Below are positions 38,850 through 59,722 of a stretch of DNA of 64,000 nucleotides, piece by piece. Position 1 is the first letter of the stretch; each line of letters opens with the position of its first letter. The stretch spans positions 1 through 64,000 of the forward strand of contig NZ_BCNX01000009.1 of NCBI RefSeq assembly GCF_001571405.1, written 5' to 3'. The DNA is from Methanoculleus thermophilus (GTDB taxonomy: Archaea; Halobacteriota; Methanomicrobia; Methanomicrobiales; Methanoculleaceae). Under the pieces are notes generated by a model, which was given only the letters and a program-made list of their open reading frames with translations, was not told where the DNA came from and ran no database searches. Both the position numbers and the translations under genes were made by a program.

Positions 38850-38980
38850 CTCCCTAGTTCTGATTTTTGAAATTCGAAATTCTATCCGGTGCTTCTGCTC
38901 CAAACGCTCTCCCTTCGCAAGTTCATAGGCTTTGTCAAACGATGTTCCGGAGAGGGCACAGCCTCCCGTCCCTCCGGGGG

Positions 38981-39057
38981 CGGGGAACGACTGCCGGAAC
39001 GGCAGGAGTTGAAGCACCGCGAGGTGCGAGGAGGCCGAAGGCCGGGTGGGGCTGGGG
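38981..39057 (+). ncRNA. Three-hairpin structured element, copy A
   Basis: Three hairpins follow in close order. H1 is CTGCCG-GAA-CGGCAG at 38991-39005. H2 is GCACC-GCGA-GGTGC at 39014-39027, with a GNRA loop if read on the plus strand. H3 is GGCC-GAA-GGCC at 39033-39043. H1 and H2 are 8 bases apart. A second copy at 59 kb has the same architecture with compensatory changes. This lies in the 417-base gap between convergent genes (38818-39234), the rest of which holds no recognised gene. The strand is uncertain and RNA status is inferred; a TATA-like GTATAAAC at about 39094-39101 could drive the other strand. Confidence 0.5.
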
Positions 39058-39234
39058 ATATAGACATCCAAAATTGGTGGAGGCGAGCATGGATGTATAA
39101 ACCCGAAACCGGACAACCTCAGGCGGGCCGGATGGCCGCAAGGTGGATCCACGATCTCGCAAGCCCGCACCCGACCGATTGATCCGAACAGTAGCCCATC
39201 TAAAAGAGAAATCGCACCGGAGTCCGCGGCCCCA

Positions 39235-57469: not shown

Positions 57470-58603
57470 TCAGCCGGTAAGAATCTGACGTACTCCTGAT
57501 GCGAAAAGTATGCCCATTGCCCTGGCTAATGCGGGTTTCAGGGCGAGTTTGCGGAGCAATGCACCCGGCCGATCCATATCGCCGTGCTCCACAATCGTCG
57601 CGATGAGGTCTTCGTCATTAAGGGCCCGGCAGAGGCGGTCGATCTCTTCCGGCGTCATCCTCTGCCTCATCCTAAGCGCCTTCATCCCGATATCAAGCTC
57701 TCTTCCGAAATCCTTCTTCCAGCGTCGTTCATAATCCCGGAGGCTTTCGTCGTCGAACGTCATGCGGGCCACGCAGGCCGCTGCGACTGCGGCAGCGTGC
57801 TTTGCCGACCGGACGCCGGTATAGACCCCGCCTCCCGACGTGGGTTTCGCAAACCCCGCCGCATCGCCGACGAAGAGCGCACGGTGGCCATAGGTCTGTG
57901 GCATGACCCCGAGCGGGATGACTCCGCTTACGAGGTGGAGGATATTATCCCCGTATCGGGCGATGAACCGATCGAAGTGGTCCTTTGCCTGCTCCCGTGC
58001 GCAGAGCCCGACGCGTGCCCGGGTCTCCGACACCGGGATCACCCACCCGAAGAAGTCAGGGGAGGCGTTGGGGTGCAGTTCCACATAGCGCGGGTCCATC
58101 TCATGCGGCACCTCCGCCTGCACCCCGGCGAGGTAGGTCTCCGCTCGCTGCAGACCGAGCATTCGGGCGATGGAACTGCGCGGGCCGTCGGCGGCGATCA
58201 GGAGGCGGAAGGGAATCTCCTCGCGCCCGCAAACCCCGCGGGCGAGAAGCGTGGTGCCCCGGATGCCGCAGGCGCTGGTCTTCAAGCAAAACTCCGCTCC
58301 CGCGTTCGCTGCATTCTCCGCCATCTCCCGATCGAGGAGACACCGATCCACGACGTACGCCTTCGTGACCCCCGCGTCGAAGAGGAGTTCCCCGCCAAGA
58401 CCGGAGAACATCCGGGCGCCGGTCACCTCGTTCAAGACCGACCTCTTCGAGACGTCGCACTCCGCAAACGCGGACGCGGAGAGGAGGCCCGCGCACTGAA
58501 CGGGGTACCCGATCGTTCCATGCTCCTCGATGCAGAGCGTTGAAAGCCCCTCCTCAGCACAGGCCCGCGCGGCAGCACTCCCGGCGGGGCCTGCGCCAAC
58601 CAC
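57470..58603 (-). CDS. Geranylgeranyl-reductase-family flavoprotein
   Basis: A 377-residue FAD-dependent oxidoreductase of the family that saturates archaeal geranylgeranyl chains. The dinucleotide-binding GAGPAGSAAARA is at residues 3-14, the family motif YPVQCAGLLS follows (C at about 37), ADGPRSSIARMLGL is the second FAD contact, and LFVGDAAGFAKPTSGGGVYTG is the GD motif. The only canonical start in this frame between the upstream stop and the domain is GTG at 58603. Residues DVVV, the usual first strand, are encoded further upstream without an ATG. See findings. Confidence 0.85.
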   Translation of the reverse strand: MVGAGPAGSAAARACAEEGLSTLCIEEHGTIGYPVQCAGLLSASAFAECDVSKRSVLNEVTGARMFSGLGGELLFDAGVTKAYVVDRCLLDREMAENAANAGAEFCLKTSACGIRGTTLLARGVCGREEIPFRLLIAADGPRSSIARMLGLQRAETYLAGVQAEVPHEMDPRYVELHPNASPDFFGWVIPVSETRARVGLCAREQAKDHFDRFIARYGDNILHLVSGVIPLGVMPQTYGHRALFVGDAAGFAKPTSGGGVYTGVRSAKHAAAVAAACVARMTFDDESLRDYERRWKKDFGRELDIGMKALRMRQRMTPEEIDRLCRALNDEDLIATIVEHGDMDRPGALLRKLALKPALARAMGILFASGVRQILTG

Positions 58604-58808
58604 AACTACATCCCAGATCAGATTACCATGCCTCGCAGACGTGGGTTTCCGGCGACCGGGTGCGTGTGTTCAGGCCGGCACCTGGTTCCTGACAATAATA
58701 GACCTATGGAGGCATAAAATGGGGTGGATGAGAGGTACTTATAGTCGTACGGCCGGTCTTCGGATTGGACAGATAAGGCATCCATTGGACTTCCAACAAC
58801 AGCCATCT

Positions 58809-59155
58809 CATGAGGTTTTGTTCTTCAGAGTGTTGACTCACACTTGAGTTTGCTTGTTTTGTCTGTTCCTAATTGTGCAACCTGTCGGGTCTAGTTCAAA
58901 AATTTGAGGGATAGGTAGTTCCAGAGCATATTTGCTTTAAATCAGAACGGTGAATGCGCCCACAAAACCCCTTGCACTGGACCGTGGGGGAATCGCCATG
59001 GGGGGTGGGGCTGACGGGGAGTGCGACGGTCCGAAGGACCGGAGCTCGAGCACCGGTAGGTGCGAGGGGGGCACGCCCCCCTCCCCTGTCCCCACCCCCC
59101 AGATACGATGCCCCATGGAAAGCCGTGCACACACTCTTAAGAACAAAACCTCATG
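58809..59155 (+). mobile_element. Roughly 350-bp element with 25-bp inverted ends, MITE-like
   Basis: The 25-base segment at 58809-58833 and the reverse complement of 59131-59155 match at 24 of 25 positions. They bound 347 bases that contain no convincing gene but do contain the second three-hairpin element. A TATA-like TTTAAA at 58936-58941 lies inside. No transposase is present, so mobilisation in trans, if any, is assumed. The 205 bases before it (58604-58808) and 204 bases after it (59156-59359) show no gene or clear regulatory site, apart from promoter DNA for the flanking genes. Confidence 0.5.
58996..59105 (+). ncRNA. Three-hairpin structured element, copy B
   Basis: H1 is CGGTCC-GAA-GGACCG (59027-59041), H2 is GCACC-GGTA-GGTGC (59050-59063), and H3 is a six-base G/C stem with a CACG loop (59066-59081). 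H1 and H2 are 8 bases apart, as in copy A at 38991. An outer stem closes them: GGGGGGTGGGG (59000-59010) pairs with CCCCACCCCCC (59090-59100). Relative to copy A the H1 stem has three double changes that preserve pairing. A promoter-like TTTAAA at 58936-58941 suggests a plus-strand transcript starting near 58965. The class is unknown. Confidence 0.5.
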
Positions 59156-59359
59156 GATGGGCTCCGGTTTTTAGACCAGATCCAATATGCAACACACCCC
59201 GGGACAGAGCAGGAACACCCGAGTGTGAGTCACGCCGAATACCTAATTTTTCGTCCTATCGTGCCCCCCAGCATTCAGATCAACGATACCAGTAGCACCT
59301 GCCGCCCCCTGCCCCCATTAGCTGCATATTTGACGGATCATGCCCCAGGTAGTACCGAA

Positions 59360-59722
59360 ATGCCGGAAGAACGGGAGTTTAAGTGGAAGCAGTGTCTGGT
59401 CGTGCGCGCCGACATCAAGATGAGTTGCGGCAAGAAGTGTGCGCAGATCGCCCACGCCGCCGTCAGCGCCTACGAGAAGGCCGATAAGATCGCAAAGAAG
59501 GCCTGGCTCGACGAAGGGCAGAAGAAAGTGGTGCTGAAGGTGCAAAATGAGCGGCAGCTCTTTGAACTCAAGACGATCGCAGAGCAGGCGGGCATCCCCG
59601 CCTCGATCATCCAGGACGCCGGGTTGACCGAGATCCCGCCGGGGACCGTGACGGCGCTCGGTCTTGGACCCGCTCGTTCCGAAGACCTCGACCGGATCAC
59701 CGGCGACCTCTCCCTGCTATGA
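59360..59722 (+). CDS. pth2: Peptidyl-tRNA hydrolase, archaeal type (Pth2)
   Basis: A 120-residue Pth2 that releases tRNA from peptidyl-tRNA. The family motif CLVVRADIKMSCGKKCAQIAHAAVSAYEKA, with its Lys and His, is complete. The VVLKVQNERQLFELKTIAEQAGI stretch and the C-terminal IQDAGLTEIPPGTVTALGLGPA are typical. The ATG at 59360 (MPEEREFKWKQ) is preferred to a longer upstream reading. The stop overlaps the ATG of truD (ATGA), so the pair is co-translated. Confidence 0.95.
   Translation: MPEEREFKWKQCLVVRADIKMSCGKKCAQIAHAAVSAYEKADKIAKKAWLDEGQKKVVLKVQNERQLFELKTIAEQAGIPASIIQDAGLTEIPPGTVTALGLGPARSEDLDRITGDLSLL

Follow-up and report, generated by a model that had tools for sequence, protein, structure and literature searches.

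Unique inverted repeats enclosing a G-quadruplex/hairpin element of Methanoculleus: a candidate inversion-prone intergenic unit

In this work, we characterized an intergenic unit bounded by near-perfect inverted repeats (arms) in the window, i.e., the whole 64,000-nucleotide stretch of Methanoculleus thermophilus DNA analysed here, in which the unit belongs to contig C9 of a 2.22-Mb genome. We regard it as evenly balanced whether these arms form the outer inverted repeats of an intergenic unit that is non-coding, prone to inversion and carries one copy of the recurrent Methanoculleus G-quadruplex/hairpin element, and we consider the unit more likely to be flip-prone than to be an ordinary jumping element. 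The core at 58966-59130 forms a separate element that has imperfect ends and abuts the right arm, and the 25-mers at the borders are not conventional transposon ends. Between-species comparison of assemblies at two other loci shows orientation changes that recur between inverted repeats around this element family. The features of the locus are as follows:

57470-58621, minus strand: geranylgeranyl-reductase-like FAD protein gene, the divergent neighbour, with a putative start codon
58809-58833, plus strand: left arm of the outer inverted repeat, CATGAGGTTTTGTTCTTCAGAGTGT; the match continues outward to 58803
58834-58965, no strand assigned: AT-rich segment from the left arm to the A end, unique, no homologue found
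58966-59020, plus strand: A end of the core, CCC-NN-TGCAC-TGGACCGTGGGGG-NATCGC-...-GGGGGGTGGGG-CTGACGGGGA
59000-59021, plus strand: second G-rich half, with a CTGAC loop
59027-59041, plus strand: module hairpin 1, CGGTCC-GAA-GGACCG
59051-59062, plus strand: module hairpin 2, CACC-GGTA-GGTG
59064-59083, plus strand: module hairpin 3, GAGGGGGG-CACG-CCCCCCTC
59076-59130, minus strand: B end of the core, minus-strand reading TGCACGGCTTTCCATGGGGCATCG...GGGGGGTGGGGACAGGGGAGGGGGG
59076-59100, minus strand: potential G-quadruplex GGGGGGTGGGGACAGGGGAGGGGGG, of the published recurrent type with an ACA central loop (PMC8044849)
59131-59155, minus strand: right arm of the outer inverted repeat, CATGAGGTTTTGTTCTTAAGAGTGT as reverse complement; the match continues outward to 59160
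59360-59722, plus strand: pth2-like gene (peptidyl-tRNA hydrolase 2), followed by a truD-like gene

The two arms agree at 24 of 25 positions (58809-58833 against the reverse complement of 59131-59155), exactly as an earlier sequence-only reading had described, and with one gap allowed the match covers 58803-58833 and 59131-59160, about 31 columns. Their local score of 24 exceeds the highest value, 15, reached when the flanks were dinucleotide-shuffled 2000 times, and zero arm-like matches were obtained in 100 shuffles of the window, so that none is expected by chance. The arms enclose 297 bp of intergenic DNA, and the proposal of a discrete inverted-repeat-bounded unit without an open reading frame is supported. 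The core does not sit in the middle of the unit, as had been suggested: the unit is centred at 58982 and the core at about 59045, and the B end touches the right arm at 59130. AT-rich sequence of 124-132 bp lies between the left arm and the A end; measured from arm to A end, the spacing is about 130-145 bp, compared with 110-135 bp in the units at the argF and PiT loci described below; the AT-rich segment at 58834-58965 resembles the L-domain of those units in place and length, with homology undetected beyond the A end.

Searches allowing up to 3 mismatches found no second copy of either 25-mer in the window genome or among 199 genomes of the order, and exact-match searches of GTDB and viral contigs found none either; for these exact ends, this is one of the two outcomes that the sequence-only reading had itself named together as pointing away from mobility. 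The target-site duplication that it proposed to look for is absent at 58808/59156, where the border sequences (...CAGCCATCT / GATGGGCTC...) are the inverted repeat running on into the flanks. Comparison with empty alleles is uninformative at the window locus, because every relative read has different sequence throughout the gap upstream of pth2.

The core is one member of an intergenic family spread across the genus; the G-rich part of this family has already been published as the recurrent potential G-quadruplex sequences (rPQS) of Methanomicrobiaceae (PMC8044849). The window copy carries four G-runs with single-nucleotide first and third loops and a central loop of the CTGAC/GCA/ACC/ACA set (GGGGGGTGGGGACAGGGGAGGGGGG, 59100-59076 on the minus strand), has a C3TC3 track (CGTGCCCCCCTCGCACC) directly 3' of that minus-strand motif, and is intergenic; in that paper, the C-rich track, here module hairpin 3, is described as able to compete with the quadruplex. 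The paper gives G-runs with a CTGAC or ACA central loop, a C-rich track 3' and a strictly intergenic location, and places about half of the rPQS tail-to-tail, 39% head-to-tail and 11% head-to-head, in agreement with the 56 convergent, 34 tandem and 10 divergent copies counted here with simple codon-usage gene calls; the window copy is of the minority divergent class. All copies lie between genes, and no sampled element encloses an open reading frame. Element ends, the module string, enclosing inverted repeats and inversions are not given in the available text, which also lacks the words "transposition" and "mobile".

Most of the genus carries tens of copies of the family per genome, and some genomes have few copies or none at all; A ends number up to 58 per genome at two mismatches versus 0-2 per strand for the reversed pattern. 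Alignment of about 100 copies revealed that the two ends, A and B, are distinct and imperfectly inverted relative to each other, with A paired to B in 53 of 59 cases and a span of 53-387 bp between anchors in all 59. Between the ends, small hairpins follow one another in a series that varies from copy to copy, with 27 different self-complementary stems among 39 modules; at the position of module hairpin 1, other copies carry many different yet self-complementary stems. Among asymmetric elements, the G-rich half lies on the A side in 35 cases and on the B side in 6. No target-site duplication was found in 19, and then in 53, A-B elements. RNA-like pairing of the A and B ends was considered and rejected, as no coupling beyond the shared consensus was seen; their likeness is conserved sequence rather than base-pair coupling. 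No Rfam match was found in the window.

Unique inverted repeats (threshold, at least 16 matching bases) enclose 3 of 111 distinct copies, about 3%: the window copy (24/25), one upstream of argF (17/17) and one beside a PiT-type phosphate transporter gene (19/19), the latter two in the related genome G003 and their gene names being our reading of the sequence. The idea that all copies carry flanking inverted repeats was accordingly rejected, and the core does occur, as suggested earlier, both within such units and away from them. When 606 kb of DNA, mostly from loci chosen for carrying the element, were scanned, the only such repeats beyond those of modules and G-rich core sequence were these three units and the argF orthologue in G011 (15 bases). 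Arms at argF were found in eight genomes (G003, G011, G015, G020, G048, G045, G009 and G004), mostly with 15-17 matching bases, the pairs in G004 and G045 being weaker; those of G009 match at 50 of 50 positions, and its interior contains an assembly gap. The unit at argF is absent from several relatives and from the window genome, and genomes without any unit exist at the comparable argF and PiT loci.

At argF, the DNA outside the arms is collinear, and the interior flanking parts in G015 and G020 are opposite to those in G003 and G011; the G011 interior matches the reverse strand of G020 with 96% identity over 221 bp and 84% over 114 bp. The flanking domain is in plus orientation in G003, G011, G045, G009 and G048, and in minus orientation in G020, G015, G004, G042, G012 and G017. 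On the argF gene tree, this corresponds to 5 orientation changes among 11 genomes, at least 4 of them forced by well-supported branches, and on the PiT gene tree to 3 changes among 8 genomes, at least 2 of them forced, both counts being no fewer than for shuffled labels. One genome represents each species and repeat assemblies may err, yet G003 and G020, both single-contig, are opposite at argF. By this comparison, the enclosing repeats at argF and PiT invert their contents, which the sequence-only reading had not proposed. Further, the innermost part of the argF unit in G015 and G020 keeps the orientation seen in G011 while ends and flanks swap, so the inner and outer levels appear to flip separately, or to have flipped twice; this fits a second, inner inverted-repeat pair (GATATCGCCAC).

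The two arms of one unit are also more like each other than like those of other units, even though they vary between species. At argF, both arms read CCAAGG in G003, CCAGGG in G011, and CCACGG in G048 and in G009, with one each of CCAAGG and CCAGGG in G015; at PiT, the same two T are missing from both arms in G044. Matches within units amount to 212 versus 200 +/- 4 on within-locus re-pairing (p about 0.001), a test inflated by shared ancestry, and we therefore take this apparent within-unit likeness as support rather than proof. The A and B ends, unlike the arms, display no such coupling. Among about 128,000 positions scored with the argF/PiT arm profile, the window right arm (GCCCATCCATGAGGTTTTGT) comes 23rd, the choice of offset not being allowed for, and the left arm 311th; likeness of the window arms to other units is weak, with 13 of 17 bases ungapped on one arm and a poor match on the other. 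Near other elements, the same profile reveals no clear additional outer arms and mostly returns B-end-like matches, and the arms were rejected as a widespread outer terminus.

Because it has the same core, near-perfect arms, a similar spacing on the left and a weakly similar right arm, the window copy is likely of the same class as the argF and PiT units; weighing against this, its AT-rich segment is not homologous to their L-domain, its arms are common to no relative read and its orientation is known from one genome. Recombination or replication template switching between arms would flip the interior and keep the arms alike, perhaps helped by the hairpin- and quadruplex-forming core, which would explain why the arms match each other and nothing else. 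We further offer, as a tentative and on balance unlikely extension, an undescribed Methanoculleus DNA-inversion system, in which rPQS/hairpin elements would lie within two nested inverted-repeat pairs (locus-specific outer arms and an inner GATATCGCCA), segments would flip independently and recurrently, recombination would keep the outer arms alike, and the window copy would be such a unit between divergent promoters.

The surroundings of the window unit bear on what a flip could do. In relatives, the stretches beside both flanking genes are conserved and the middle of the gap is completely variable. If the conserved TATA-like stretches are promoters, the window copy would lie upstream of both, so a flip in this divergent gap would alter the upstream DNA of both genes without breaking either. 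Immediately upstream of the pth2 start, about 38 nt (GCTGCGTATTTGACGGATCATGCCCCAGGTAGTACGAA, window 59320-59359) are nearly invariant in about 30 relatives, with the remaining gap replaced; this stretch includes a likely TATA box and possibly a conserved leader. On the other side, the geranylgeranyl-reductase-like gene probably starts with CTG at 58619-58621 (M-IWDVVVVGAGPAG); a CTG lies at the same place, with no in-frame ATG, in the few relatives read by eye. If the preferred reading is true, a family known only as a possible quadruplex motif would gain recognizable ends, an interior made of modules and, for some of its copies, flipping enclosing repeats, turning a static motif into a rearranging intergenic element of methanogenic archaea. 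If flips are fast, some could serve as switches in front of housekeeping genes; if slow, they would still explain the high variability of these intergenic regions between species.

The most serious alternative, which we nevertheless hold to be doubtful, is a purely local inverted duplication, produced by template switching at a hairpin-rich site and straddling the core by chance, with neither recurrent inversion nor function. The uniqueness of the arms, without copies or target-site duplication, is what such an event predicts, and the replacement of the gap interior in every relative indicates that rearrangement is frequent there; against it, two more copies of the family lie in comparable unique arms, at loci that were repeatedly inverted. 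Arms kept complementary as a structural stem, closing a DNA cruciform or an RNA structure around the G-quadruplex/hairpin core, are improbable. This would be consistent with the co-variation of arms within argF and PiT units and with the predicted single-stranded DNA fold of 58801-59166, in which the arms are paired (-89 kcal/mol, z = -8.8); however, most of that energy simply reflects the presence of the repeats, the arm coupling is explained equally well by gene conversion during inversion, most copies lack arms, the core ends show no compensatory coupling, and G015, of a flipped lineage, already has an uncompensated arm mismatch.

A classical MITE, as the sequence-only reading had put forward, in which the 25-mers would be the terminal inverted repeats of a non-autonomous transposon and its parent would be lost or absent from the collections searched, is very improbable: length, inverted ends, lack of an open reading frame, the intergenic site and the genomes without a comparable unit at argF agree with it, but within the collections searched neither a second copy of the ends nor a transposase with matching ends was found, target-site duplication is absent, and the core has separate ends and lies directly against one arm. 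Prokaryotic MITEs (PMC10969869) are likewise shorter than 500 bp, intergenic and without open reading frames, with inverted ends; here the terminal repeats are single-site in the genome and in 199 relatives rather than multi-copy, arms are unshared between copies, target-site duplication is absent, and neither the sampled elements nor the Y1 transposase search gave a parent element. The flip-prone reading of the window unit has a parallel in invertons (PMC5903667), intergenic segments of about 300 bp between short inverted repeats with mismatches allowed, a form that the window unit has (24/25 arms, 297-bp interior); both interior orientations occur, here between species at the comparable argF and PiT loci. 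Unlike invertons, the interior here is a repeat element rather than a promoter, and flips are known between species alone. The inverton survey sampled only six archaeal datasets and reported inversion signatures in bacterial species (PMC5903667).

REP/BIME elements with RAYT transposases are also dispersed intergenic hairpin pairs, often between convergent genes; unlike them, the present family has A and B ends and G-quadruplex halves, and a Y1 (TnpA-REP/RAYT) transposase (PF01797) had no match in the window genome, with positive controls. The 45-nt satellites of Methanoculleus marisnigri (PMC6749651, family 48_45_4), listed there as a satellite family, are likened here by period alone, which fits the 45-46 bp tandem hairpin modules of several copies; nearly identical 46-bp hairpin modules in tandem at locus L010 and at C6:36505-36734 of the window genome also fit that family.

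Several minor observations concern related loci. The copy at 38.99 kb is a different cassette type with the same hairpin repertoire and without A/B ends; the cassette at window 38950-39060 comprises a CTGCCCCCGCC-like stem, TGCCGGAACGGCA, CACCGCGAGGTG, GGCCGAAGGCC and ...GGGTGGGG, shares hairpin modules with the core, and in relatives is often nested directly inside A/B ends, on the B side. At PiT in G003 (L205/L146), each end has, past the 19-bp arm, a further stretch of about 119 bp that fits the same L-domain profile, the two forming long diverged inverted repeats; in G020 (L215), the L-domain is divided between the two sides, as an internal inversion would leave it. An intergenic repeat (CTCACGCGAAGCCGCGAAGAACGCGAAG) and its reverse complement form inverted pairs in the same gaps of relatives (L063, L064, and argF of G013 and G041). 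Finally, at L209 (G049) and L212 (G011), the place by the left gene of the PiT locus where other species have the arm-bounded unit is taken by a CRISPR array, with repeat ...TTTCAATCCCTATCGGGTTTTCTGATGAGCTGTGAC and a variant of it differing by one base.
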